DNA of 32,644 nucleotides from the NCBI RefSeq assembly GCF_000003605.2, contig NW_003126889.1, forward strand, positions 252,362-285,005, written 5' to 3'. A program made the position numbers and the translations under genes. Source of the stretch: Saccoglossus kowalevskii (Eukaryota > Hemichordata > Enteropneusta > Harrimaniidae). A model generated the notes under the pieces. The model saw only the letters and a list, made by a program, of their open reading frames with translations. It had not been told where the DNA came from and ran no database searches. Of the stretch, positions 8,601 through 28,655 are shown piece by piece; positions within the stretch are counted from its first letter, which is position 1; every line of letters starts with the position of its first letter.

Positions 8601-11600
8601 GTAAGATTTACATAAACGTGTAAATGAATGATTATGGCAAGTTTGTCCTTGGCATGCATGTATGCAAAGTGTAGGTGAATTCAGTAATGTAATGATACCT
8701 GCAAATAAGAGTAATTTGTCTCGCATTGCAGGTTTGCATTGTTGGTACTTGTTCATTCTTGGTTTGAATTTTACTTTTAGTCTAATATTTTAATCGATTA
8801 AGGTGGTTGCTGGTCACTCTTATTTCACTTGACATTGTAAAATTCCAAGGCATGAAACTAAATTTGCGATGTTTTTCTGTAAATGTATGCAGTGCATTAT
8901 GGGTCCAGGATATGTGACTAATTTACTTGCACATATTGAATGTAGGCGTGTTGGTAGGTAGATACAATCAGTTCATTGCATTTCTATCTCTGCTGTATTT
9001 GGGAGGTGGTTTTGCAGATGGATTAAATAACTTTCCTTCAATCACTAGTGGTGTATGTGCTGTGAAACACTTAAATTCACAAGTAATTGAAATCGGGAAA
9101 TATTGTAGCTCTAAGTGCAAAAGATGGAAGAATTTTGGTAAATGTTGTCCTTACAGATTAAAAAATAGTGAATGTGTTGTGTCTATAACTATTATCTGCT
9201 TGCATGGGGTGGTGGGGTGTGGATGGGATATTCCTGTCAAGGAATTTGAGTTAGGTACAAAATTACACTGACTAGAACTTCCTGCATTTCAATTATTAAT
9301 TTGACATAGTTTATGGGAAAAACACTTCCTGGCTTATTTTAGGGGTATTTTATTGCCATCCTTTTCTGCTGCTGCAAAAGTACACGCGAGAGATTACTAA
9401 AAATGAACTCATGAAATATTCAACAGCCGGGTTTCCTGACAAGCTGTTGTATGACTATAGTGATTAGTTTTCTGACTGAGTTTATTTAATGAAGCCTCAC
9501 CAATGTAGCCAGCATTAAAGGGAGAGAGACAGATATTTTTAATTGTATGAATTCATTAAATAGATACAATAGGGGGGGGGGGGGGCATAAAAATGACAAT
9601 TTATTCAAAAATGGCAAGTGTAACGTGGTATTTCCCCCAAGATAATTTCATGAATCTGCACAGTTAAAAAAAAGAACAATGTTTAATCATGAAATCGATC
9701 TGATTTAATTAAAATATTTAGTACCTAATCTAAATGGGGGGGGGGGTTTGCTTTATTTTTGTTGAACACTAAAAAGCTTCTGGAAATTAATTTGCTATTA
9801 AAGCTTTGCAAAGGTGAAATTTGAAGTCGCTTTAAAGGATCAAACTCAAATATAACCAGTAATTTCCAACGCCGTATAACTCGTAAAAAGATTTATAGAA
9901 AAACTGACAATTGCTTATGTTGAGTATATCAAGATATTCACCTGTGTTCATGTCTATACTCTCCTTGAAAACAATCATTTACTGGCACTTGCAGCTGTAC
10001 AGGGTGCTCGCATGAATAATTTATCAAGGGATGTCTCATTTCACTCCCCTGTCAGTCTGTAAATTTATTTCTAATACTTGGCATCATAATAGTGTATTTG
10101 TGAGCAGTAGTCCATGCCTCTAATAATTAAATGTTATTGTAGGTGTACTCTAAAATGAATTTTCACTTTTTGCTGAAGGGTTGAATTCATAAAAATAAAA
10201 TAAAGCAAAAATTTTGCAAAAATAAACTTTTTGCAAAATGGCCAAAATGACTTCACAAAAATAAAATCTAGCTAAAATAAAGTACATGTACACATTTACA
10301 ATATACCAACATAGTTGACAAAATCCAGTCTAAATGACCTTTGCAAGCTTACAACTGTTTGCTTCATAGGGTGGCGTGACTAAAATGCCCTTCATATATT
10401 CTTACAAGCCATGCGAGACAGATAAATTTCACAATTTTGCAAACAATTCTCCAATTTGTCACTCAAAATTTGTGACATTGCAATATAGCAGTCAAAGTGA
10501 AGGTCAATCTACAAGATGTCTGATGCTAATAAGTGTATAGTGCCTGACGTTTCTAAAGGTACTATAAATTAGTTGCTAAGCAACACCTTTGTCAAGCTGA
10601 AAGATGAAAGCAATTGAATTAATATTTGATATGTTGTAATATCTTTGATATTTGAAATATAGTTTGTGTATTGTCCTTAACGATTGTTAATAGTTATGGT
10701 GCACCTGGTGTTGAATTTATTGGTGTGCATAAAGATGAAACCCCAGTGTCTCAGCTATTCTTTCTTCCTGATCAGGTAAGTCATTGCTAATAGATCGCCA
10801 TGGCCAATATTTAGGTTTAATCCTTGACTTAAGAAAACTGTTTTCAGCATGTCAAAACTCAATTTTATTTCCGTTGAATAACACTATTCATTGGTGAATA
10901 GTAAAAAACAAAAAAAAAACCCCGAACCAGATGCTCAATGTTGTTGGCTGGGAACCCCGAACCAGATGCTCAATGTTGTTGGCTGGGTCATGTAAGGGCA
11001 TGTTAGCAAACATTCTGACTGTTGGCTATAACTACAAACCCCGACCCAGATGCTCAATGTTGTTGGCTGGGTCATGTAAGGGCACGTTAGCAAACATTCT
11101 GACTGTTGGCTATAACTACAAACCATAAAAGTTTCAGATTATATCCATGAATGATATTGTTTGTAGAACACTACTCAGCTTGTGCTAAATTTGAAGTCCT
11201 ATTAGACAATACCCTGCTGTGTGTGATTCGGCCTTGAAACTTTAACTGCTAAACATATTCTAGTTATACCTGGACAAGCATAATTTAAAAATCCTTGACA
11301 TTTGACTAGTTAAAATCAAAGATCGTGTATGCAATGGGCGTTTCTCTTACCAGCCTAAAAAACGAGGGAAAAAATGATTACATTTTTTTTTTTCATTGTC
11401 GGTTTGACTGATCGATTCGCATTCAAATAATACATTTAGAATATAGAAATCTAAAAATAATATCTATAGACAAGAAACTCTGAATGGATTTTATTAATGC
11501 ACCCGTTCTTTGCAGATTTGTTATTTAAATTTGTAGATATGAATGAATTAGAGCCCATCTTCCTACTATAAACATTTGTCCTGTTTTAATAAATTGCTAT

Positions 11601-14600
11601 TAGTATTGTACTCGGAGATTGCAACAGTCAGGTGCTCCTTAAGTGTTAACTTGGTCCCTGGGAGACGTTTAGGATAGAGAAGGTGCCTGGTTTAATGTCT
11701 GGAAATGGGCAAATCATTGCAAAAAAGGAAACGTGTAATTGTAGAACACTAGTCGTAAATCTTAGATTTGGTATTATTGTAAGGCTACACGACCTCATTT
11801 TGCTAATGTTGAATTTCAGGGTCGTATTATCAGCCTGCTGGAGAACAACACATTGCATCTATGGGAAGTGAATATCAAAGATGGAAACTCTGTCTTAGAG
11901 GAAGTCAAGGAATTCTCTTTGGAGGGCAGGTATGAAAACACACAACTTTTACCTTTTTAATCGTGCTGCTATTTAAAGGTAGACCAAATCTGTCGTATAT
12001 ACCTAGGCAGTGCTAGCATCGAATGTGCGGCAGTGAGTTGTCAACTAAACAAAATTTAAAACGTGGAAAGAAATTTTGCTGCAAAATGTTGTGAATTTGT
12101 CACAAGTAACCCAGTTTTTTTTTTGGGGTCGCTTTGAAAAGAGAAATTTCTGAACACAATAGAATGGAATTCTATTTCTTGATTGTGGGTTCTTTACTCT
12201 GCCATCCTATAGATTTATGCATTAATCCATGAAATGACTCGACTACAATGAGGTATTCAATAGAAAGTATATCAGTCCAAAATGCTCAGTTTATACTTGT
12301 GCTATGAAATTTCTGAAGACTAAGTATTGCTACAATATTGATTTTTATCATTTCTTACAGATTGCAGAAAATTACAGTGTGTTGCTTGCCGTCAGACTGT
12401 CAGCATCTCTTCTTAGGAACAGAAGGTGGCAACATCTATGTTCTTGACATAGTATCGTTTGAATTATTGGAGCATATCATTTATCAAGATGTTGTTATGC
12501 AGAAGTAAGTACAATGCTATCACGTTTTTGTAATCATCTTAAATCATGGCTTAGGGTGTATAAAAGAAGAGTGACCAGTTTTGGGTATGCAAATTGCACT
12601 TCATGGTAATGTATCTCTTCCACAAAACTGATATATTAGATTATCGAAATGCATGGAGTGCTTTATTTTTCTGTTGCATACAACCATGAATATTTCACGA
12701 TGTTAGTTTACTAAGAATCTCTTCATAGCAGGCAATTATGTATGCAAGACAGTTAGCATATAGGATTAACACCTCAGTAAAGTGTGGGTGGGGCCATTCC
12801 AATTGCATTTCTCTGGTTTCGTTGTTAATCCCGGGGATTTCTGAGCCTCTTTAGATGGTTAATTTATTACTGATGGATGTTTCACAACAGAACTTTTATT
12901 TCTTGATAGCTAATTTATTTAATGACATTACAGCATGCAGTGTTCTTTGTTTGTGTATAAAGGAAAGGTATCGACAGCCGAAATCGGGGTAAAATGGCAT
13001 GTAGAAAACTGATACTGCGTTCCCCATTAACAGGCAACCAATCTCTAACACTCAAGTCTGCCAGCATGGAACGGGCACACCAACCATCTCTGATTGGGTC
13101 GATATTGGTCCTTGGCCAAAGTATTGCCCTCTTAATAGGTATGATGTGATTATTGGCCAAGACTACTGGTCAGTCCGTCATTTAGTTCAAGTAGTTGCCA
13201 TTTTACCCCGATTCCGTATTAGTTTCATGCTATGCATCAGTGTTATTCCCATATACCATCACTAGTCGTTCTTACCTGGTAGTCTTGCATGTTAATTTAT
13301 TGTATGCTTCCATTGCGCATGTACATCTTCATCTGGTTTGCTTAAAATTTGTCGCCCCATGTGTATGTAATTGAATGTTTTGAGTTTAACAGTGTTTGTG
13401 TGATCAGTGTAGAATAGAATTTGTTGTACATAGTTAGTGATAACTCCAGTTGCCTGACTAGTCAAAACTTCCTGACTATGTTTAATCAGGCTTCGTGATT
13501 CCGACTGTTCCTACAGCGTGCCTGATGACTACAAGGTGAATCCTGGTGCTGTTGAAGCTATTGCTGCTCACCCCACTGAATCAAACAAGGTATGTCAAAT
13601 TAGTCATTAGTTTCATTTGTCAGAATTAAGTGGCAGCCTTTATTATCTGGATGTTTGTCAAAATGTAACTGCAGATGATTGTTTTATACTGTATTGCATC
13701 TGGCAAATCAAGAACGATTACAAAAAGTAATTTATTGCACTGACAGCATGTTGGCTCTCGATAAGTGCGCATGATTGGCATAGACAATATTCCCCAAAAT
13801 CATTGAAATAATATTTGGATTTTTTAATGGTTTACAGTTTAAAAAAAAATAAAATGGGATATTTTTGTTTAATAGTTGCTGATAGGATACAACCGTGGAT
13901 TGATTGTACTCTGGGATAACAAGACCTGCAATGCTGATCAGACATACGTTGGAAGCCAGCAATTGGAATCGCTTTCTTGGCATCGTAATGGCATACAGTT
14001 TATGACTGCTCACAATGACGGCAGCTATGCCATATGGAATGTAAACGATCCAACCAAACCGGAGAAAGATCCCACTATTACTTACGGTAAGTTACTGTCT
14101 CAGCTGGTGTTTACACTGAAGGTCAAAGGTCACTTATTTGTATGTGGTGTTAATTAAGCATAAAGATGTAGGTTGTAGATTTCATGTCATTAGCATATAC
14201 AAATGTAATAATTGAACTAGACACAGATGGCTTCAAAGTAAATTGCTTTAAATATAAAATGACTGCTGTCAACTTTCATCTAAATCACAAAGTAAGATGC
14301 CCATGAAGACGAGTTGATATCTTCAAATATATGTACTGCAAAATTAAAACCAGTTTGAACTAACGTTTTAAAAGTTGAATCAAGGTTTTGTATATCATCA
14401 AATATGCATGCATGTGTACTTTATTTGTGATAAAATATTGTCCTAAATTTTTTGCTGGTGAAATCTTAGACTGAAGAAGATTGTGTCATTTTTCTGTGCT
14501 GAGCACCAGGCCACATCAGAGTTGGGGTGGTCGTTAGATCCCTACTTGTCATAATTACTGCCGTTATTGTGAAATAGTAGCTATCAAGTTATTAATAATT

Positions 14601-17600
14601 GATTGTATTAATCGTACAGGATATTGTCAAATGAAAACCAAATTATTCCAATTGCTGTTAAAATGAAATTATTTCAAATCAGTAATTGTAACAAATTGTG
14701 TAGCAATTAGACGTGAATTACTGTAGAAAGATGTCTCTCGAGAATGTCTTGTAGAAAGCAAGGATTTGTGTATTGTAACATGACCTGCATGCATATAATG
14801 AGGGGTGTGGTCACTTTGAATGGGAAGACGCTTGTTCTTTATAAGATTGAATGAAGGCATTCTCATTAATGAAATATTAGATTGTAAAATGAGGGGGAAA
14901 CTATGCAAGGTCAGATGGCTTGGAAAAGTGAGAATCTGTCTGAACAGGCGAAGATGTTGGATGTTGCTAAAATAAAAACATTCTGAGAGCATGAATATTA
15001 TATATTAGAAATATTAGTGTATTGCAGCAGTTAATGTGTTATATGGCAGACATTTTACTGTCTAGGTTTGACCTGTAGTCATTAAGTGGAGATGAAAGCT
15101 GTCTTATCGCGTTTATCACTAGCATCCAAAGTAAAATTAAAGATGTTCTGTGCCATGGAAGAGGGAGATTAGTTTTGAAATTTTGAATATAAAACTGTTT
15201 AGAATTTGTGTTAAAGTTGCATTAATTTTAACATGCAGTTTGAATCAAGTGTTCTAAATTCTTGGATTATCATTTAAACAAAATGTTTGTAATTGAGTTC
15301 ACCTCAGAAGCCATAACAAGAAACTACTTTATAAAATTGGTCTCCATTTTGTTGAAAAAATAATTCTGAAAATTGTTTTGTTTTTGAAATAACATGCTTT
15401 AAGTGTGAATGTGTTATCTCCCTGCCCTATATTGAGTTGGTGTGCAGGTAATTGTAGGTCAGATTCCTGGCATACTTAGCATGTTACTACACAGGACACT
15501 TTAGTAATTGGAGCGTTTTACAAAGTACAAAACAGTAATAAAATGTCCCCTCAAGGCGGGTTACCTGAAAACTAGAACTACTTATCCTGTAAACTCAATT
15601 TGAAAATATTTACGAACACTTGATGCACAAGAAGTGGTGATGGAGATTGCTTCCACTACTACCCCTTTGCAATTTTCAAGTTTGACTTCAAAAGTTTCAT
15701 GTTTTCTACTCATTGCACAGATGAAGATTGTGTAGGCAATGATCACTATTTGAAAATGTTTTTTCACTTGGACATGTATACATCTTTAATATTTCATAAT
15801 CAGTACACTAGAAAATTTCAGGTCACTGGCCAATGTTAGTTTTGCAAGTTTGCAAAGTAGCTAAGCGAGTTGATTTTTAAAGCAAACTAAATTCGTTAGT
15901 AGCCAACTTAAATAAAACTATTCTACCAGGCGAGTTGATGAGGTTGTCAGATTTGTACTTGTACAGGAATAAACTGATTTGGTGTTCACAGTACAGCTGC
16001 CTGATCGATTCACAAACTATCGCTTGTTGGCCACAGTAGCCTGTACGACAATTTAGAAAGAATTTTATATTTGAAAGTGAAGTCAGTGTGACATTTAGCA
16101 TCTCTGGTATCAGTTTGATTTATGACAATGTCAGTTTAATGAATTTAGAGCCATGTCATTTTAATTGCAAGACAAGGTAGTAAAAATAGTAAATTACAGT
16201 TGTAAAAAGTGGATGGTACGTAGTTAAAAAAGGACTCCTAAAATAGTAGTTTTAACTCTTAAAAATGCAATAGTTGGTGTAAGCGGTAAAATAAATAAGG
16301 CAACCTGGCTGGTTGCCTCATCTTGGATTTTTCTGAACATCACCTTGACATATTTGAAATATGCAATTAATGTTGGGTTATTTGCTGCAGGTAGGCACCC
16401 AGGCATTTAGGCACCCAAGTCTAAATTTCATGTGGTTTGGGGCAAGTTTACTAGTGTGCTTGACCCCATTGTGCAGTATGGCAGTTTACCAGAGTGCTTT
16501 GTTACGACCGGAAGAAATTTGTCTGAGTGTCACAACTGAACAGTGTTAATGTATCTTATTATTCACCCATTTATCATGTCAAAAGGGATCCCTGGCAACT
16601 TTCCCACCTTTCTCTGTGACAGCATCTAGGGACTAGAGTTGGGGAAATCCTCAAATGTCTACTTTAGAGTCTTATAAAAGCANNNNNNNNNNNNNNNNNN
16701 NNNNNNNNNNNNNNNNNNNNNNNNNNNNNNNNNNNNNNNNNNNNNNNNNNNNNNNNNNNNNNNNNNNNNNNNNNNNNNNNNNNNNNNNNNNNNNNNNNNN
16801 NNNNNNNNNNNNNNNNNNNNNNNNNNNNNNNNNNNNNNNNNNNNNNNNNNNNNNNNNNNNNNNNNNNNNNNNNNNNNNNNNNNNNNNNNNNNNNNNNNNN
16901 NNNNNNNNNNNNNNNNNNNNNNNNNNNNNNNNNNNNNNNNNNNNNNNNNNNNNNNNNNNNNNNNNNNNNNNNNNNNNNNNNNNNNNNNNNNNNNNNNNNN
17001 NNNNNNNNNNNNNNNNNNNNNNNNNNNNNNNNNNNNNNNNNNNNNNNNNNNNNNNNNNNNNNNNNNNNNNNNNNNNNNNNNNNNNNNNNNNNNNNNNNNN
17101 NNNNNNNNNNNNNNNNNNNNNNNNNNNNNNNNNNNNNNNNNNNNNNNNNNNNNNNNNNTGTCTAGGACTTGACCTGGAACGCGTTTTTTGACCTGATAGG
17201 TCAAGTCGTTAATTAACCAATCAAAATGCTGGATGATGCCAACGTGATCAAATTACCATAGCTCATTTAAATAATGTATGAACGCAATGCGGAAGTGATT
17301 TGCCGATGTGTGCGATATTTTGGCTTTGATTTTGGTGGGAAAGACGGCATGATTTTTTTTTCAAATCAAGAAATTAGTTAGTTTTTGGAAAGTAAACTGA
17401 GCATTTAAAGAATAATTTAACACTGTTTACTGTGACAACAGCGCATTTGAAACAGAACATTTTCGCGTTGTTTTAATTTCGTTTTTATGGACTTACTGCG
17501 AAATTAAAAACCACGCTGATATTTTCTACAGAGTAGACTAAAAAGACATGTTTCAAGAGATTATAGACCGATTTCTTAAAAATTGTTAGAAACAAAACCA

Positions 17601-20600: not shown

Positions 20601-23600
20601 CAGTGATGATCCTCGTTTAGGAATCCAGAAAATCATCCTCTGTTCAGTGACTGGAAAGTTGGTTGTTGCTGGAACAGCTGGACAGGTTATATGTTTGAAC
20701 TTGGGTGAAGAAGAAATTGAACAGAGTATTGAGGTAAGTTGAATGTCTTATGGTGATTCAGAACAATACTTGTTCGCTGGAATTGTACTTGCTCATTGAT
20801 TGCATGCATTTGTGTCATTGATCTAGAGACGTGTAATGTTGAATCTAATTTTGTTCTTGCCTGTAGACACATGCTGTGAATATAGTTAGTGATCGTGATG
20901 AGTTTGTATGGAAAGGACATGACCAACTTAATGTGAAGACTGATGATGTGAAGATGGCACCAGGCTTCCAAGCTAATTTTGTAGTTCAGTGTACCCCTCC
21001 AGCTGCGATTACAGCTTTGGCCACTTCTGTTGACAAAGGTCTTTTAGCTGTAGGTACCAGTCATGGTTACGCACTGTTTGACGCAAATCAGAAGAAGATG
21101 GTGATCACCAAGTGTACCCTGAATCCCAGTGACTTGTCAGCAAGTGGAGAAACTCCCATGTCCCGTCGCAAGTCATTCAAGAAGTCTCTGCGTGAATCAT
21201 TCCGCCGTCTTCGTAGGCGCCGTTCGCGTAAAGAGAAGGAAGACAAACCACGTGTTGAGGCTGTTCCAACAACAGATCTTGATGCCCCTACACCAGAGAA
21301 AGAGGACACCCCAGCAGCTGAAGCCACCGAAGAAAAAGCAGAGGAGCCCAAAGAGGAAGAAGAGAAAGAAGTGAAAGTTGAAGAAACAGAGAAAATGCCT
21401 GTTGAAAGAAAAGTTGAAGCTCGTAGTAAAGATGATGCTATGACCAGTATGGTGAGATCACTGTATTTTGCAAGCACATTCATCCGTGATGCTAACACAA
21501 TGACCACTACATTCTGGGCTGGTACAAATGCTGGAACAATCTACGTTTACACAATATCTGTTCCAGATGATGAAAAACGTGATGAAGTAGATGTCAAAGC
21601 TGAACTTGGTGAGTTTAGATCTACTGAAAATATTCTCATCTAGTTTTTGTATGGTGTACCATTTTATGAAAGAATTTCACTGTTTAATTTCTGATGACAG
21701 GCAAGGAGATACGTTTGAAGCATCATGCACCAGTGGTAGCCATGTCTGTGATAGACCACGATGGATATCCATTGCCAGATCCTATTGATGTTACTAATGA
21801 AAGATGTAAAGCACCAAATATGTCTGGTGGACATTCTATTGTCATCTGTTCTGAAGAACAGTTCAAGGTATGACTTCAATTTCTATAGAGATCAAGATTC
21901 TTTTGACTGTAATTATATTTGAAGCTGAAACTAGTTTTATGAAAGTAAATTTGTATGTGACTTGTGTTTTGTCATTTTGTAGGTGTTCTCTCTCCCTAAT
22001 CTGAAACCTAAACACAAGCATAAGTTGACTGCTCATGATGGATCCCGTGTCCGTAAAGTCTCATTCATCAATTTCAGGAGTAGAAGTGGTAAGTAGTTTG
22101 TTAATCACTTTAATTTCTTTACCTGGAGGTGTTTTCTTGTTCAGAAATCTTATGAATTGCATAAGATGCGTGAATTGACTACGAGCTCGAATGCAGTTTT
22201 CATCAAATTTGACTTGTCAAATGTCTATAGCATTTTAAACATGGAAATATGCCAAAATACTAGTTTGTTGAATCACGTGTGATTTTTCTCAACACTATGA
22301 CCTTTCATATATAATGCCTGATCTTGCATTGAATGAGAAATGGCCCATTTCAAAATACAAATTTCTTTAGTTTGAAAATCATGTTATTAAATTGTGAAAT
22401 GATAACATTTATAGCATCAATAAAATACTGGTTATTTTTCTACCTCTCGCTGTATTAGTTAAAATCACACTGAATGAAAATTTATCTGAGATGCTGAAGA
22501 AACCTAGCCACTTCTGTAAAATGTTACTAACAATTTTTGTTCTCTCCATCTCAGATGACAATTATTCAGAGAACTGCGTTACTTGTTTGTCCAATCTGGG
22601 AGATTTGCATATCTTTAGCATTCCACATCTGAAATCACAATTAAAAAAATCAGCAATTCGTAAAGAAGATATCACCGGAATCAGTTCATGCATTTTCACG
22701 TGTCGTGGGGAAGGATTCTACCTGCTATCGCCATCAGAATTTGAGAGGTAAGCCTCTTATAGACATTATTTTGAATAAGAAAATAGACTAGTCTTGATTC
22801 AGTATCTGCAAGGTATCTTTTACATATCCAGTTTATCAGAGCCACTATATTTAGTTTGACACTATATAGTTTAACAACTAATGTCTATTTCAGGTTCTCA
22901 TTGTCTGCTCGGTACATCAAAGAACCGATGTGTATGCTAGAATTGAAAGAAGGAATGAGGCCAACACCACCTGAGCCTGAACCAGAGCCAGAGCAAACAG
23001 AGGAGAAAGAAAAAGATGAGGGAGAAGAAAAGACTGATGCTGAAACTGCAGAGGGGGAGAAAGATAAAGAGGAAGAAGAAACAAAAGATGGTGGTGAAGA
23101 GGAAGAAACACCTGCAGCGACTGAACAAAAAACTGATGATCCAGAAGCCACTGCCCAAGAACCAGATGGTAAAACTTTAGCTCAACTCTTGTGATATAAA
23201 ACAGATCTGATCTGAATTATCAGTTGTGGCTAACCAAATTGTCATAGCCCGGTTAGATCTGTTGGTACTTGAAGAATGTGAATGTCTGAGAATGCTGATT
23301 GCCATGGTATCTTGTGTTTAGTATTGTGTGCACTGGACTTGTGAATAATAAATTGAATAGCACTGGGTGATTTTTTTTTAGGTGGTGTTATGGGTAATAT
23401 TTGCATGGCATGTTACAACACTGACAATTCACAAATGCTGGCACTTCCAAGGCAAAAGCCCCCATGTTGTCATAGCAACAAGGTGGTATGGTTGTATAAG
23501 TCAACAATAGTTGATAATGTGGTTTGGTCTAGCACTGTCTATTCCCTTTCATACTGTCTGTTTAGAGCACTGTATTCTCTGTATCACAGTAAAAAAAACA

Positions 23601-26600
23601 TCACTAAGAAACTATGAATTGCACATCTTGTTTCTTTCTAATCTTTATTTGCTCTTTGCCAATTATTTATTTTATTGTGTACTAATTTGAAATTTCCTTT
23701 CATTTTATATTTACTTTACTCACCTTTGCTGCTAGAGCGCATACTATTTGAATCCACTCCCTATTCCACCACGTCAATTGCACCGAGACTGAATACCTAT
23801 CGGTATGTCACGGTAGAAACGACTACAAGTAGTGGACGCATTCAGAGAACACAGGTTGTTGACTCCCAGTTTGATACTTTATTTGAAAAGCAATCACAGC
23901 GAAATAGTGGTACCTACCAACACGGCATGACGTGGGATATTGTCCAGTCGGTTCTCCCAGATGAGAACGTTGGAAGTAAGAAACCCCTTGATGCATGATT
24001 TGCGTTGCCCAGTATTGTAATGTGCAATGCACTTGTGTGAATCCGGTTTAACATGGTGTAGCAGGTAACAGCTGGGTCACTCATCCTCGCTTCAAATGAG
24101 ATTCTTCTATGTCATTAATAAGTCCATTGTTTTTGTCCATCAAGACTGCATGAATTCGTACGTCTCCTAGTAATTCATGCCCAAGTCTTCCATTGTCACA
24201 TGTAGTGGTGTCTTTACTCTGTAGTTTGGTTTGACCATGGGGTCTATGCCTTGGAATGTGTACATGCACACACTTTGATACATGCTAAAACAGCAGCTTG
24301 CATTTGGGTGGCTTACTGATAGATAAGATTGTATGGCTCTTTTACAACTTCTGCTCGAGGTGCAGTATTTTGCTTTATTTTATTGGTGTTTTTTTAAGGG
24401 AAGACAAATCTGTGTTTGCATTATAGAATTAGTCGAGGAAGTTGATGTGATATTGGCTAAGGCTGGTATCTCTGATGCTAATGATACAGTAGAAGAAGAA
24501 ACACAACAAGACATCACAGTAGATGAAGTAAAAGATTATCAGAAGTAAGTATGTTTGTGTGCTTGCAGCTTGAACAAGCATTGTCTTAATAGCCATCTAC
24601 TAGGTTGCTGAAGAACACCAGCTTCATAAATTGTTCAAATATATACCAAACTATTTCCTGGACATGGCTAAACCAACATTCAATACTAAACTTCAAACTG
24701 GAGAAATAATTTAATAAAATCCCTGATCAAGCATAGGGTCTCGGGATACACAAGCGTTGACACTACTCAAACTTGATTTCTGTACATTGTTGATTTACCA
24801 ATCTAAGTTTTATTGATCTAACTGTAATTTCAATTTATTTTTCAACAGTGAAGATGAAGGTGAAACCAAAGCAGGAGAAGGTAAGATGGAAGGCGAAGAA
24901 GAGTGATTATTTGATTTCATCCTGGTCAGTTTTCTCGTATTGCCAAATTACATCATTGTATTTCATCTGATTACATTGTTTTGTTGAATGTCATCATTGA
25001 ACGCTGCATTTTGCATGCTGTGATAGAATTTGACCAGGTGACAGTTTTAACTCGCTGCCTATTGGTTAAAATGTTGTGACATGGCTTAAGCTGATGCTGT
25101 GAATAACTGAATATCAGCAGTAAGCAAAAGTTGCACATTTGTCAAGGTTTAGTTCTTAGATTGCTTGTAAAAAAAGCTTAAATGTCACTCAATTTAACAA
25201 TCATATTTAACCCTTGAACACCAAGTCAATGTCCAGAATAGAAGTGTAATTTTTTTTATACATTTTAAAAACTTGTGATCTATGGACATGGAAATTGTCA
25301 ATTCATCCAAAATTAACCAAAAAATGAAAGTGCGTAAAATTGTTGGCACTAAAATTGTGGCAAAGATTTGTGGTATTGAAAGGGTTAAAGAATCATCATT
25401 TGTACAAGTGTGTGTGTGTAAGATTTGTGGGCATGCTGCATGGTTGCCTTGGCAATGGATAATAACATTCAACTAAGTTGCAAACATTAATATCACTGTT
25501 ACTTCATATGAAAATATACCTTGCATGATACCATGGCAATCGGTCAACATGTTCTGTTCTATGTATCGATTTCTGGTAAATTGGCGCCGTCAGTAATCTG
25601 GTCCGTCTACTGTAATATTTTCCTTAGCATGTTACCATGACAAAGTTTGTCTAGCTGACAGTTATCTCATCATTAGTGTCACTTTTTCAATCTCCCCCCA
25701 AAACGTGGCTTTTTTCATCTGCATGTTGGCTTTCCTTTCTTTGTCTGTCTGTCCTACTTACATAACCTTTCTAAGTGATTTACTGCTTGCAATACTTCAC
25801 TAAACTGCAAGAAATCAAGAATTCGCTAACTGGATGAAATTTACCAGCCATTTTTAGTGGTGTGCACGATGACGAGTTCTTTTCTTTTTTCTCTCTCTGG
25901 TTGCGGTTTATGTTTTATTTCCACCAATCTGAACATCCATGTATGCTATGTATAGCAGGCGGCTTATCAAGTGAAGCTGAAAGCGCACAGAACCCAACAA
26001 CTGAAGAGGTTAGGATTCCTTAGAATATTGCTCCTACGCTAGATCTGTAGTTGGATATCAACTCGGCTGCAAACACTTTTACATATATATGTTTTTTTTG
26101 TATAAAATAAAATGTAGCTCTAGATGATAGCATTCAATTTCTGACACTAAAAAAAATTTGCTCTCACACTGTCAACTGAGAAAAACGTGCAAAACCCAGT
26201 GAGTACTTGCATGTGCACGTAACAAGGCAGCAAGAACAGTGTAATCAAACTTGATGAATTTCCAGCCAAGTTCTTCCACTAATCACTCCATCCATCTCAT
26301 CAAACCATATCATTTCACTCCGGCTTAAAACTATACCTTCTTTAGACCTTTCTAAATAATATCAAAGTTTATCGTGATAAAATCTTTTTAAAAGCTTGGG
26401 TTAAAAGCTAAATTATATTTCAGTTTACTTTTTTTTTTTCATTCTGAACCTGCTTTGTTTTAGATTCTAAACAAATGTTCCTGGTGCTCATGTCTGACCA
26501 CATCTGACAGGCTCAAAGTATTGGGCTACTGTCTCCTCATTATCATTTTTTATATCTTTTCCCTTCTCATGCTTGCATATTTATGTTGGATGAAGTAAGT

Positions 26601-27496
26601 CACTGGTCTACTTGTAGCCTCTCATAAATGTTATCTTTCTGCTGTACTTGCTGTGACTGAGTGCCCCGCCCACTTTAGTTAGCCATGATCCTCCACTGCT
26701 TCTGTGGAATTAGTCATGTATTGTAGTGAGTCGCTTGTCTAAGTTTCTCTTTCTGCTCTTGTCATCCAATGCACCCATTCATAGTCTTTTTTTCAAAAAT
26801 GCTTTGTTATATGGTATAAGTTGTCATCCCATGCGTTTATGTCGTACGTTTGCCGCATCTCATCAGTTCACCTGGCCAGACATCCTTGGTGTTTGGAAAT
26901 TCAAAGTTGAAGTTCGGTTAGTCATCCCATTGAACACTATTCTAACAAATCCCATTGAGTGTTTATACAAGAATCTACACTGCTTTCTAGTAGACTAGAG
27001 AGATGTAATGTTTTATAATCTCTAGCAGTTCTGATTCCATTGTATGGAATTATTAGATAATTAGATGTTCCTATTTTTACCAGATGGTGGTTATTATGTC
27101 AATATTTGACGTGTAACTGCCGTTTTAACACTACATCTGGTCAGGTGAGCTGCAGGGCTATTTTCTCCCTCCGTCTCTTTCTTGCAAAGCATGACTTCCA
27201 TTCAACGTATGTTAAATCAATGTGAAAGATGTAAAGATCTGCTTGTTGGCATGTCAAACTTGATTCATGTAGTTGTCATGGTAACATGTAAAGGAATAAT
27301 GTTGACAATCAATTCTCTAGAATAATCTGACTTTTCAACTCTATTCAGCATAAGCAACATATTTCAGCTTGCTGAATTAGTAAAATACTGCTGTGATAGA
27401 TACATGTGTTGACCTTGTTTGTATTGTTGATTTCAGAGTAGTGAACTCAGAGGTGAAGAGCTAGTTGAGCTTCAAATTAAAGAAGATGCAGACTGA
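2560..27496 (+). CDS. llgl: Lethal giant larvae homologue (LLGL1/LLGL2 family), whole multi-exon gene
   Basis: Lgl proteins are cortical scaffolds that set basolateral identity with Scribble and Dlg and are opposed by aPKC/Par-6; they also bind non-muscle myosin II and t-SNARE syntaxins. Joining exons 2560-2646, 3468-3565, 10694-10775, 11820-11929, 12361-12504, 13517-13589, 13876-14086, 18941-18992, 19451-19678, 19784-19931, 20237-20461, 20581-20733, 20867-21608, 21701-21867, 21983-22088, 22555-22747, 22894-23168, 23736-23975, 24427-24544, 24849-24880, 25959-26008 and 27437-27496 gives an unbroken frame of 1197 residues. Family members are usually about 1000-1160 residues, so this one is somewhat long owing to acidic insertions and exon 18. 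Two seven-blade propellers are expected from the family. The aPKC segment lies at residues 635-659. There is no R-SNARE motif at the end, so this is Lgl and not tomosyn. Every join keeps phase, which makes the model strong up to exon 19; the tail is less certain. Confidence 0.95.
2647..3467 (+). other. llgl intron 1 (821 bp)
   Basis: Bounded by GTAGGC and TTCCACAG. It includes an open stretch at 2908-3126 that has no family resemblance and no supporting splice pair, so I treat it as non-coding. Confidence 0.85.
3468..3565 (+). CDS. llgl: llgl exon 2, start of first beta-propeller
   Basis: Encodes residues 30-62, beginning [17 protein letters not shown] and continuing [12 protein letters not shown], the first WD-like blade of Lgl. 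The donor is read as AAAGT|GTATCC, giving phase 2; exon 3 then restores K-V-Y-G as in the family. Reading on without splicing loses the similarity at once. Confidence 0.93.
7749..7780. repeat. GT/AT dinucleotide microsatellite
   Basis: A run of alternating GT passes into alternating AT and then TATGTATATA. It lies in intron 2 and has no coding meaning. Confidence 0.85.
9572..9585. repeat. Poly-G tract (14 nt)
   Basis: An uninterrupted G run inside an otherwise AT-rich intron; a shorter run of ten or so G lies about 150 bp downstream. Length is uncertain because such runs are error-prone in sequencing. Confidence 0.8.
10212..10238. repeat. A/T-rich hairpin in intron 2
   Basis: Arms TTTTGCAAAAA (10212-10222) and TTTTTGCAAAA (10228-10238) are perfect reverse complements around a 5-nt loop. 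The surrounding 100 bp is rich in AATAAAA-like words and looks like a decayed dispersed repeat. Confidence 0.55.
10694..10775 (+). CDS. llgl: llgl exon 3
   Basis: Encodes residues 62-89, reading [20 protein letters not shown] and ending FFLPDQ. The YGAPGVEF motif is a family hallmark. The acceptor is TTAATAG, preceded by a poor pyrimidine tract; the donor is CAG|GTAAGT. Starts in phase 2 and ends in phase 0. Confidence 0.95.
10776..11819 (+). other. llgl intron 3 (1.0 kb)
   Basis: Carries the 84-bp tandem repeat at 10919-11124; otherwise AT-rich with nothing recognised. Confidence 0.85.
10919..11124. repeat. Tandem repeat, 84-bp unit (two full copies plus a truncated one)
   Basis: Units begin ACCCCGA at 10954 and 11038 and are nearly identical over 84 bp, differing at a few sites such as GAACCAG versus GACCCAG and GGCATG versus GGCACG. 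A shorter leading copy starts at 10919 and jumps to the next unit after 35 bp. It produces open frames on both strands that are artefacts of the repetition. Confidence 0.9.
11820..11929 (+). CDS. llgl: llgl exon 4
   Basis: Encodes residues 90-126, reading [17 protein letters not shown], the family blade with a terminal LHLWE. Acceptor GAATTTCAG, donor GGCAG|GTATGA, ending in phase 2. Intron 4 (11930-12360) holds nothing recognised. Confidence 0.95.
12361..12504 (+). CDS. llgl: llgl exon 5
   Basis: Encodes residues 126-174, including ITVCCLP and [15 protein letters not shown], which corresponds to the ALGTEGSSVFFLDV blade of vertebrate LLGL1. Acceptor TTTCTTACAG, donor AGAA|GTAAGT, phase 2 to phase 2. 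Confidence 0.95.
12505..13516 (+). other. llgl intron 5 (1.0 kb)
   Basis: Contains an apparent foldback element at 12982-13213; the rest shows nothing recognised. Confidence 0.85.
12982..13213. mobile_element. Candidate MITE-like element with 18-bp terminal inverted repeats
   Basis: The sequence AATCGGGGTAAAATGGCA at 12982-12999 is matched exactly in reverse complement at 13196-13213, enclosing a 232-bp unit. The interior has no frame that looks like a transposase and is less AT-rich than its flanks. Such short non-coding units with inverted ends are typical of non-autonomous DNA transposons. I cannot see an unambiguous target-site duplication, so the exact ends and the superfamily are open. 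Confidence 0.55.
13517..13589 (+). CDS. llgl: llgl exon 6
   Basis: Encodes residues 174-198, with [15 protein letters not shown] matching the family SVPDDYR..GPVE segment. Acceptor CCTACAG, donor AAG|GTATGT, ending in phase 0. Intron 6 (13590-13875) is short and featureless. Confidence 0.95.
13876..14086 (+). CDS. llgl: llgl exon 7
   Basis: Encodes residues 199-269, reading [14 protein letters not shown], then [12 protein letters not shown] and [11 protein letters not shown], two consecutive family blades. The acceptor is GTTTAATAG and the donor TACG|GTAAGT in phase 1. The frame stays open past the donor to 14157, but similarity stops at the splice site. Confidence 0.97.
16298..16318. repeat. 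Short perfect hairpin
   Basis: Arms AGGCAACC and GGTTGCCT are exact reverse complements around the loop TGGCT. Too short to assign a role. Confidence 0.5.
16683..17158. other. Assembly gap (476 N)
   Basis: All bases are N. It lies wholly within intron 7, so the protein model is not affected. The sequence to its right is repeat-like, which may explain why the assembly broke. Confidence 0.99.
17159..17830. mobile_element. Probable dispersed-repeat or transposon remnant at the right edge of the gap
   Basis: The segment differs in composition from the surrounding intron (CpG words such as GCGATCGCG and CCGCCGGCGCCC). At 17166-17207 it has an inverted repeat, GACTTGACCT and AGGTCAAGTC. At 17742-17757, 17784-17800 and 17801-17816 it has three copies of TGGCGCYTAAYTGARG, with a fourth degenerate copy near 17695. 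It ends near ATACGGTA. No coding sequence is visible. It is probably one end of an element that continues into the gap. Confidence 0.5.
18281..18291. repeat. Poly-G tract (11 nt)
   Basis: An uninterrupted G run in intron 7, the third such run in this gene. Confidence 0.75.
18941..18992 (+). CDS. llgl: llgl exon 8, start of LLGL core segment
   Basis: Encodes residues 269-286, [18 protein letters not shown], matching the family [15 protein letters not shown]. Acceptor CAATCAACAG, donor AAGGG|GTAAGT in phase 2. Intron 8 (18993-19450, 458 bp) holds nothing recognised. Confidence 0.95.
19451..19678 (+). CDS. llgl: llgl exon 9, LLGL signature
   Basis: Encodes residues 286-362. Contains [17 protein letters not shown], the most diagnostic motif of the family, then [13 protein letters not shown], a short acidic loop ([10 protein letters not shown]) and [14 protein letters not shown], the last blade of the first propeller. 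Acceptor CTCTTACAG, donor GAAGG|GTAGGT in phase 2. Intron 9 is only 105 bp. Confidence 0.98.
19784..19931 (+). CDS. llgl: llgl exon 10
   Basis: Encodes residues 362-411, with [20 protein letters not shown] matching the family PYLAPLHSSAIT segment at the start of the second propeller. Acceptor TTTCCTATAG, donor CAGAGG|GTAAAT, ending in phase 0. Intron 10 (19932-20236, 305 bp) holds nothing recognised. Confidence 0.96.
20237..20461 (+). CDS. llgl: llgl exon 11, [11 protein letters not shown] blade
   Basis: Encodes residues 412-486, starting [14 protein letters not shown], then [17 protein letters not shown] with [11 protein letters not shown] at 434-444, and ending WPRFRK. This is the best WD40 repeat of the protein. 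The family has a similar variable acidic loop before DDWP.FRK. Phase 0 at both ends, so the exon is symmetric. Confidence 0.98.
20581..20733 (+). CDS. llgl: llgl exon 12
   Basis: Encodes residues 487-537: [18 protein letters not shown], then [15 protein letters not shown], matching the family [31 protein letters not shown]. Acceptor ATTTTTTTAG, donor GAG|GTAAGT. Phase 0 at both ends. Confidence 0.98.
20867..21608 (+). CDS. llgl: llgl exon 13, aPKC-phosphorylated polybasic loop and acidic insert
   Basis: The largest exon, residues 538-785. It begins [21 protein letters not shown], then [12 protein letters not shown] (second-propeller blades). Residues 635-659 carry [20 protein letters not shown], the conserved polybasic region that binds plasma-membrane phosphoinositides. 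Ser640, Ser644 and Ser648 align with the fly aPKC sites S656, S660 and S664; phosphorylation releases Lgl from the cortex. An acidic Glu/Lys-rich stretch follows at about 680-717, longer than in vertebrate LLGL1. The exon then resumes the propeller with [14 protein letters not shown] and [15 protein letters not shown]. Donor CTTG|GTGAGT in phase 1. Confidence 0.98.
21701..21867 (+). CDS. llgl: llgl exon 14
   Basis: Encodes residues 785-840: [20 protein letters not shown], then [15 protein letters not shown], matching the family GKEVQLMHRAPVVAI and GGHAVLIASEEQFK. Acceptor CTGATGACAG, donor AAG|GTATGA, ending in phase 0. Confidence 0.97.
21983..22088 (+). CDS. llgl: llgl exon 15
   Basis: Encodes residues 841-876: [20 protein letters not shown], then [11 protein letters not shown], matching VFTLPK..KFKLTAHEG.RVRKV. 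Donor AGTG|GTAAGT in phase 1. Intron 15 (22089-22554, 466 bp) holds nothing recognised. Confidence 0.96.
22555..22747 (+). CDS. llgl: llgl exon 16
   Basis: Encodes residues 876-940: [20 protein letters not shown], then [20 protein letters not shown] and [10 protein letters not shown], almost the family sequence for the last blades of the second propeller. Acceptor CCATCTCAG, donor GAGAG|GTAAGC in phase 2. Confidence 0.98.
22894..23168 (+). CDS. llgl: llgl exon 17, end of propeller and acidic tail
   Basis: Encodes residues 940-1032. It opens [16 protein letters not shown], matching the family RFSLSARNITEPLC, and then becomes a low-complexity Glu/Lys/Pro tail ([14 protein letters not shown] onward) of about 65 residues that replaces the Ser/Pro-rich tail of vertebrate LLGL1. 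The opposite strand is open in several frames here only because of this composition. Donor GATG|GTAAAA in phase 1; reading past it reaches a TGA at 23192-23194. Intron 17 (23169-23735) holds nothing well supported. Confidence 0.94.
23736..23975 (+). CDS. llgl: llgl exon 18, symmetric (phase 1-1) exon of unknown function
   Basis: Encodes 80 residues (1032-1111), containing [20 protein letters not shown], then [20 protein letters not shown] and a [17 protein letters not shown] end. It is 240 nt, starts and ends in phase 1, and keeps the frame both when included and when skipped. It is rich in Ser/Thr and, unlike its neighbours, not acidic low-complexity. I do not recognise it in vertebrate LLGL1. 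Acceptor TTTGCTGCTAG, donor GGAA|GTAAGA. It is probably a genuine exon; whether it is constitutive is unknown. Intron 18 (23976-24426) holds nothing recognised. Confidence 0.8.
24427..24544 (+). CDS. llgl: llgl exon 19, conserved [10 protein letters not shown] tail
   Basis: Encodes residues 1112-1151: [20 protein letters not shown], then [11 protein letters not shown], which matches the conserved GDVTVEDVKDF motif near the C-terminus of LLGL proteins. Acceptor GCATTATAG, donor CAGAA|GTAAGT in phase 2. Intron 19 (24545-24848) holds nothing recognised. Confidence 0.93.
24849..24880 (+). CDS. llgl: llgl exon 20, short form
   Basis: Encodes residues 1151-1162 ([12 protein letters not shown]). 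The donor GAAG|GTAAGA at 24881 is close to consensus and leads in phase 1 to exon 21. If that donor is not used, the exon runs on through KMEGEEE to a TGA at 24904-24906, giving a 1169-residue protein. Both uses are plausible; the splice form is preferred because the conserved-looking last exon lies downstream. Confidence 0.7.
24881..24906 (+). CDS. llgl: llgl exon 20 extension, alternative stop
   Basis: In-frame continuation of exon 20 ending in TGA at 24904-24906, which adds a few acidic residues. There is no AATAAA close behind, which argues that it is a minor or intron-retained form. Confidence 0.35.
24907..25958 (+). other. Remainder of llgl intron 20
   Basis: Contains the TTAA-flanked element at 25207-25388. 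A 58-codon hydrophobic open stretch follows the AG at 25627, but it has no donor and no nearby poly(A) signal, so I do not call it an exon. Confidence 0.75.
25207..25388. mobile_element. Candidate TTAA-flanked (piggyBac-type) MITE
   Basis: The left end reads TTAACCCTT at 25207 and the right end AAGGGTTAA ending at 25388, a 9-bp inverted terminus with TTAA at the outside. piggyBac elements insert at TTAA and begin with CCC, so this fits a short non-autonomous copy of 182 bp. The similarity of the termini beyond 9 bp is poor, and the interior has no transposase. Confidence 0.4.
25959..26008 (+). CDS. llgl: llgl exon 21
   Basis: Encodes residues 1162-1178 ([16 protein letters not shown]). The acceptor GTATAGCAG is good and phase 1 fits exon 20; the donor GAG|GTTAGG is weak. 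If the donor is ignored the frame adds VRIP after the GAG-GTT codons and stops at TAG 26021-26023, with an AATAAA at 26106-26111. Phase 0 at its end fits both the last exon and the cassette at 26464. Confidence 0.7.
26106..26111 (+). terminator. AATAAA, possible alternative poly(A) signal
   Basis: A canonical hexamer 83 nt after the stop that follows an unspliced exon 21. It could end a composite terminal exon, but AATAAA is common by chance in AT-rich intron sequence. Confidence 0.25.
26464..26594 (+). CDS. llgl: Candidate llgl cassette exon A, encodes a transmembrane segment
   Basis: A 131-nt open stretch entered in phase 0 after a long pyrimidine tract and TTTTAG, and left at AA|GTAAGT, a consensus donor, in phase 2. 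It encodes [18 protein letters not shown] followed by a hydrophobic run of about 25 residues ([18 protein letters not shown] and on to LCWM). Three Cys just before the run could be palmitoylated. It joins in frame to exon 21 upstream and to cassette exon B downstream. If the donor is not used, TAA follows at once (26596-26598). I know of no Lgl protein with a membrane span. T-rich intron DNA easily gives hydrophobic translations, so transcript evidence decides. Confidence 0.5.
27084..27144 (+). CDS. llgl: Candidate llgl cassette exon B, Cys/Trp-rich
   Basis: A 61-nt open stretch between CTATTTTTACCAG and CAG|GTGAGC, both strong splice signals. Entered in phase 2 from cassette A it encodes [21 protein letters not shown] and leaves in phase 0, exactly the phase of the last exon. 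In phase 0 it would meet TAA after ten codons, so it is only useful together with exon A. It contains three Cys and an N-T-T glycosylation sequon. The phase chain with A is the main reason to take both seriously. Confidence 0.5.
27437..27496 (+). CDS. llgl: llgl last exon, C-terminus and stop
   Basis: Encodes residues 1179-1197, [19 protein letters not shown], with TGA at 27494-27496. It resembles the LLGL1 end (GSSEESEKNLRNLAEDE). Acceptor TTGATTTCAG, entered in phase 0 either from exon 21 or from cassette B. It continues into the 3' UTR. Confidence 0.85.
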   Translation, partial: SSELRGEELVELQIKEDAD

Positions 27497-28655
27497 AATC
27501 GAGGAAAACCTCCGTATTTAGAAAAATTGCTACCAGGATCACTTTTAGTCATTTTGAATCTAGTATTTGATAAACACTGCAAATAATTGTGTGATAGTAT
27601 ATATAGTAAACTCGTTATTGATTGCTATTTGATAATATTTAGAATTCATTCCCAGAGACATTTTTCAGAAATTTTTGGGGCTTAGCACAGATGTACCGTA
27701 GTATTGTTAAATTGTGAGAGGCTGACTTGGTAACTACACCGTAGTACAGTGCATTTGGGGAAAAGAGTGTTATATAATTATGCATTATGCAGCTCTCCCA
27801 TTTGACACCCCTTACCCTTTTAATGTTTTTGAAGGCCAAGTTGGCTTTATTTTGAAAAGTGACATTTTCCCCTCCTTTATACCTTATTGACAAGCAATTC
27901 TCGCGGTTCCATGTATATTTGATCTAGGTGTGTGTATATCTTGCGTCAACTCATTCATGTACTCAATATTTCCTTTCTTTAAATAATACCAAGAAGTAAT
28001 GTTAGAGGTTTTGTCAACTTATTGTAATTATAACTGGTCATTAAATAGTAGTTAATTTCTTTTTTTTTTGGCGCGGCGAGTTGTTTGTTGTTGCTTTGAC
28101 AATGATCTTTGGCACCTTTTTTGAGTATATATGTTCTGTTGTACTTAAATCTTTGAAAGCCATTGTTTTTGTGGAGGCTAGATATATATTTTGAGGCAGG
28201 GTATTGTTATTTGAATGTATTCTGTCACAATTTTACCATCTTGTAGTTAGACCTGTCTCCAAGTAACTTGGCATGTCAGTTGGTTTTGGGTAATTCAATA
28301 AATGTAGCTTTTGAAATGTCCCCAGCTCAGAAGTTTTATGATGTTGATATATTTGGTAGTCTTGGCGTATTTGACTGCTTGATTAGTTTAAACACATCGT
28401 TATTTTGTAGCAATATTACTGCATTGTACTCTACTATATACTCTGGTTTAGGTAGTTGCACTCGCTTTTGACGATCCATTTTTCACTTGTTTTTCCTGCT
28501 TAATGTCCCCTAATCTAGTTAGGTTCTCAGCACCATCTTTATCACTGCCTTCCCCCCATTAGTTTTAATAAATGCTGTACGAAAAAAAATACTTGCTATT
28601 GTGGGTGTAATGTGCTGGATCTGCATACAATAAATTTTTATTCCCTTAGAGTTCT
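27497..28655 (+). other. llgl 3' UTR (probable extent)
   Basis: AT-rich, no further exon seen. AATAAA hexamers occur at 28297-28302, 28567-28572 and 28629-28634. The last is followed within about 20 nt by a G/T-rich stretch (GTTCTGTTGTGTTATTTGTG), which is the expected downstream element, so the end is placed near 28655. Confidence 0.6.
28629..28634 (+). terminator. Main candidate poly(A) signal of llgl
   Basis: AATAAA followed by a G/T-rich downstream element. The hexamers at 28297 and 28567 lack an equally clear downstream element and may be minor sites. Confidence 0.6.

Follow-up and report, generated by a model that had tools for sequence, protein, structure and literature searches.

A 32,644-nt stretch of the Saccoglossus kowalevskii genome (contig NW_003126889.1, positions 252,362 to 285,005; hereafter the window) carries an Lgl gene on its plus strand, and the 1,428-nt intron preceding the last Lgl exon (26009-27436 in window coordinates) contains two open stretches with strong splice signals, here called A and B. 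On balance, we favour the reading that A and B are real exons which make a membrane-anchored Lgl isoform beside the soluble one, and their use as alternative cassettes appears most likely. The two candidates are:

26464..26594, plus strand: candidate exon A, 131 nt, entered in phase 0 and left in phase 2, encoding 43 residues plus two bases (open frame, splice sites)
27084..27144, plus strand: candidate exon B, 61 nt, phase 2 to phase 0, encoding 20 residues after a junction K and containing the sequon NTT (frame, splice sites)

Candidate exon A is bounded by CTTTGTTTTAG upstream and GTAAGT downstream, and candidate exon B by TTTTTACCAG upstream and GTGAGC downstream. Splicing both between 26008 and 27437 keeps the frame and adds 64 residues, among them eight Cys and four Trp, and leaves the C-terminus unchanged. 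This behaviour of a frame-preserving cassette belongs to A and B together (phases 0-2-0) and to neither exon alone: after A alone the last exon is entered in another frame, giving VVNSEVKS and then a stop, and inclusion of B alone truncates the protein at a stop 10 residues into the new frame. A first-pass annotation of the same DNA had described these two stretches as phase-linked, and its coordinates, splice signals, phases and 64-codon gain were reproduced to the base by sequence readout and the frame model, as were its Cys and Trp counts by translation. The residue numbers that it assigned to the insert (1179-1242) are, in a rough check, close to what is expected from our partial model, which has 893 residues before the insert (counted from 19452) and in which residue 3 corresponds to residue 291 of the LLGL1 chain.

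Splice-site strength and chance controls

Scored with splice-site matrices, the acceptor and donor reached 7.5 and 7.9 for A and 8.8 and 12.3 for B, the medians of the gene model's own sites being 6.4 (14 acceptors) and 8.0 (13 donors). A and B carry the two top-scoring acceptors and the two top-scoring donors inside the intron, and all four sites also score above the donor (6.9) and the acceptor (4.5) that delimit the intron itself.

Chance expectation was estimated with strict thresholds of 7.4 for acceptors and 7.8 for donors, values just under the observed scores and picked after the data were known. No phase-linked pair arose in 3000 dinucleotide shuffles of the intron, 22 of which did contain an in-frame cassette set of some kind; among 249 overlapping control windows of the intron's length, no set of any kind was present. 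At lower stringency (4/4), the observed total site score was reached in one of 2000 shuffles, a gain of at least 64 codons in 53 and a hydrophobic run of at least 2.6 in two. When the 13 modelled introns were compared, an in-frame cassette set was present only in this one, regardless of whether thresholds of 7.4/7.8, 5/5 or 4/4 were applied; the 12 others, all from 19451 on, are mostly short and amount to about 3.9 kb in total.

Within the window, strong-site pairs of at least 100 nt were open in five of five cases in Lgl exons, and A is open too, as compared to none of ten outside the assigned Lgl exons (both strands, several pairs sharing a site); these counts were made by hand, with 12361-12504 assigned to the Lgl exons by eye. 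A further control used 20 stretches of 10 kb from the same contig, read on both strands, of which six consist wholly of N and nine more partly so (84,416 of 200,000 bases), leaving about 115.6 kb readable. They yielded 42 strong-site stretches and no linked pair, and none of the 29 stretches of at least 100 nt, the length to which the hydrophobicity test was limited, was hydrophobic. From this control, we drew solely on the lack of linked pairs and of hydrophobic stretches. As the thresholds were set post hoc and the intron was picked from among all introns, we consider the support from these controls good, not overwhelming.

A predicted membrane anchor and its comparison with known Lgl proteins

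The hydrophobic part of the insert is confined to a single segment of A:

26518..26592, plus strand: predicted transmembrane core, 25 residues, wholly inside A (Kyte-Doolittle (KD) hydropathy; AlphaFold2 helix)

The core reaches a KD mean of 2.72 over its best 19 residues, compared to 1.51 and 1.11 when A is read in its two alternative frames, and its summed membrane-insertion score is -4.39. At codon position 2, the core has T in 16 of 25 codons, versus 11 and 10 at the other positions. AlphaFold2, run without an alignment, modelled residues 16-42 of the exon A peptide as helical, with block values of the predicted local distance difference test (pLDDT) of 74, 88, 95 and 89 from residue 11 onwards. 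A is thus predicted to encode a single-pass C-terminal membrane anchor. As the core lies wholly in A, the anchor would require A only, and B would alter what comes after it; the earlier view that both exons are needed as a pair for anchoring was therefore abandoned, A alone being sufficient and B alone truncating. The wider proposal of a membrane-anchored splice form fared better, gaining support from exon-like signals beyond chance, the phase linkage and the strong transmembrane prediction; its splicing and its alternative use are what we still infer.

Tail anchors are located no more than some 30 residues from the C-terminus. If A were joined directly to the last exon, the protein would end 11 residues past the core, and this form is predicted to be a classic tail anchor. 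In the A+B form, the normal C-terminus lies 42 residues past the helix core, with a Cys-rich stretch and the NTT sequon in between. In transcripts containing A, an otherwise soluble double-propeller protein would acquire a single transmembrane helix close to its C-terminus; with B included, a Cys-rich tail, possibly with a glycosylation site, would connect this helix to the normal C-terminus. Both the propellers and the basic segment that is phosphorylated would remain cytoplasmic, and with the helix held in the membrane, kinases could still phosphorylate the segment and yet not release Lgl to the cytosol. Beyond the exons themselves, membrane insertion, topology and resistance to release are thus also what we infer, and a natural, splice-controlled, tail-anchored Lgl isoform that would stay on the membrane despite phosphorylation by aPKC or Aurora is put forward tentatively, as a possibility that we rate below an even chance.

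Cell polarity depends centrally on a switch in which phosphorylation frees Lgl from the cortex. If the proposal is true, Lgl phosphorylation would be uncoupled from membrane removal, with splicing overriding the kinase switch, and Lgl would gain a SNARE-like anchor topology that is absent from tomosyn.

The published work is cited here from excerpts of the respective articles. Lgl has been described to bind PI(4)P and PI(4,5)P2 via its polybasic segment and to be displaced by aPKC phosphorylation (PMC7198698), and electrostatic membrane binding of Lgl has been described elsewhere as well (PMC9242647). The gene investigated here belongs with LLGL1 and LLGL2 and shares with them the propeller region as well as the basic segment. 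However, known Lgl is peripheral and reversibly bound, whereas the predicted form containing A would be integral and would break with that feature. The closest analogue is an engineered myristoylated Lgl-GFP in Drosophila, in which Lgl is fixed to the membrane as in the predicted A form, and which, according to its description, neither aPKC nor Aurora can remove and stays out of the cytoplasm at mitosis (PMC4291145). That protein is a laboratory construct with a lipid anchor, in contrast to the natural, predicted C-terminal transmembrane helix proposed here, which, if real, would be an in vivo counterpart of membrane-tethered Lgl.

Among relatives, Sro7, the tomosyn homologue of yeast, contains a pair of seven-bladed propellers, and tail anchoring is typical of SNAREs; tomosyn, the SNARE-bearing relative, is described as lacking an anchor and animal Lgl as having lost the SNARE domain (excerpts of PMC2639358). 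R-SNAREs thus share the tail anchor predicted for the A form, while tomosyn differs from it in being unanchored. With tomosyn unanchored and animal Lgl devoid of a SNARE domain, an anchored Lgl would, as far as these excerpts go, be a new combination. No R-SNARE motif was seen by eye before the insert, where no formal or profile test was made. In mouse transcripts, cassette exons are reported to rank with the most frequent sources of transmembrane-domain variation (PMC1449889), and the main text of that article contains no occurrence of lgl, llgl1 or lethal giant. With such switching exons common in general, the kind of switch would be known and the gene new. In the literature searched (titles and abstract openings, with few subscription papers), we found no natural Lgl that is anchored by a transmembrane segment or fixed in another way, in agreement with the first-pass annotation, which knew of no such form.

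Counter-evidence and rival explanations

Several observations weigh against A and B being used exons. The insert scores -0.103 bits per codon for synonymous codon use, where the intron null has a mean of -0.124 and the gene a mean of 0.123 (P 0.002), and 79% of 1862 near-open non-coding frames are at least as gene-like. Random codons of A's composition reach its hydropathy in 23 of 2328 stop-free draws. In the contig control, 17 of the 29 strong-site stretches of at least 100 nt were open in some frame; this control cannot repeat the clean result of the window (0/10), because its DNA is unannotated and may contain real exons. Of the short strong-site pairs (40-99 nt) outside the Lgl exons of the window, three of four were open in some frame, which makes the openness of B weak evidence. 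With these controls not all clean, support comes chiefly from A, from the strength of the sites and from the phases.

Homology added no support either. The insert had no Pfam or PDB match, and no relative was confirmed for it in viral_contigs (26 pattern matches before confirmation) or for the 258-residue Lgl exon in genome_contigs and viral_contigs (159 and 94 pattern matches, respectively), collections that are prokaryotic and viral, so that a miss there means little. Furthermore, the exons flanking the insert themselves lack homologue support from the human LLGL1 and LLGL2 alignments.

The codon-use test is itself weak, because 10 of 107 sliding blocks of the coding sequence score as low as the insert. 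All ten overlap the exon at 23736-23975, which indicates either low power of the test in the tail of the gene or that this exon itself needs a check.

The strongest rival draws on the same observations: A and B could be pseudo-exons, chance open stretches with good splice signals in a T-rich intron, unused in the mature mRNA. The intron-like codon use of the insert and the frequency of B-like open stretches off the gene are in line with this, as is the outcome at loose thresholds, where 151 of 2000 shuffles contained a pair and 728 any in-frame set; the free choice among all introns and the late setting of the thresholds point the same way. At the observed strength, however, the shuffles contained no pair and the control windows no set, the total site score was matched only once, and neither the 12 other modelled introns nor the contig control provided a comparable case. 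We therefore regard pseudo-exons as an unlikely explanation, albeit one to be taken seriously.

If A and B are exons, they could instead be constitutive, in which case every Lgl of the species would be membrane-anchored and no soluble form would exist. Their sites do outscore the acceptors of both the upstream exon (1.3) and the last exon (4.5), but site strength by itself is not decisive, and the frame is kept exactly when both are skipped. An always-anchored protein would also lose the displacement by phosphorylation that excerpts of PMC7198698 describe for the peripheral Lgl of other animals. Constitutive use is consequently judged improbable.

Another possibility is that A serves as an alternative last exon, its donor being read through so that the protein ends at WMK and a TAA just past 26594. 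The frame does give AAG TAA right behind A, the assembly match of A extending into this TAA, and the product would be a minimal tail anchor. On the other hand, AATAAA and ATTAAA are both absent between A and the last exon, a strong donor (7.9) lies directly behind A, and B follows in phase; this reading is given very little credence. Least probable of all, and close to dismissed, is an origin of the insert from a mobile element or from an exon that was copied out of another gene into the intron. Such an origin would fit its synonymous codon use and its base composition at the three codon positions, both unlike those of the gene, but it is opposed by the insert and the whole intron matching only themselves in the 572-Mb assembly, the second place listed for the insert being one that ends with exon B itself. 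This result makes a dispersed repeat unlikely, in a search which scores only the best candidates and from which old degraded copies could escape. The preferred reading thus remains that of two alternative exons adding an anchor to Lgl.

The Lgl gene model and other features of the window

The exon model comprises 13 frame-consistent exons between 19451 and 26008 and the last exon at 27437, and covers the gene from 19451 on. The resulting partial coding sequence (912 residues without the insert) was compared to the human homologues, matching LLGL1 (8r3y_L) with an E value of 2.4e-227 over query residues 3-670 and LLGL2 (9ejk_A) with 3e-221 over query residues 2-702. Judged from its sequence, the gene is Lgl, the similarity being long-range and beyond general WD40 likeness, and the basic segment with the aPKC serines, a further feature of an Lgl gene, aligned to LLGL2. 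The exons relevant to the insert and to its proposed effect are:

20867..21608, plus strand: exon with the basic segment, the peripheral membrane-binding and aPKC-site element (LLGL2 alignment; role from excerpts of PMC7198698)
25956..26008, plus strand: Lgl exon upstream of the insert (exon 21 of the first-pass annotation), 53 nt, ending in phase 0 (frame-consistent model; acceptor 1.3, donor 6.9)
27437..27496, plus strand: last coding exon with the stop, 19 residues (model frame; acceptor 4.5)

The tail exons from 23736 on, including both exons that flank the insert, were placed by frames and splice signals alone, as the human alignments end earlier. At 25956/25959, a double acceptor (TAGCAG) could lengthen or shorten the start of the upstream exon by one residue, and the last exon is followed by ATTAAA at 28040 and AATAAA at 28297. 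The main Lgl exon was located at a single place in the assembly; a retrocopy, which would reveal the splice junctions, was sought with this exon, and no second place was found there.

Two further tail regions of the gene were conspicuous. In the intron before the exon at 23736, an open stretch (23382-23617) lies behind a fair acceptor (score 6.1) and is in frame with the preceding exon for 78 residues, ending in KKNITKKL followed by TGA. It could be an alternative last exon of Lgl; it had no Pfam match, and neither AATAAA nor ATTAAA was present from there to 24400. The exon at 23736-23975 is 240 nt long, a length divisible by three; its synonymous codon use is no more typical of the gene than that of the insert, and the human chains contain no homologue of it. 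It may have been called wrongly or be a further alternative exon of the tail.

Four other open reading frames of the window gave no Pfam match. Elsewhere in the window, an 84-nt repeat at 10918-11120 is present as two tandem copies and a partial 35-nt copy, and 16683-17158 consists of 476 N in a row.
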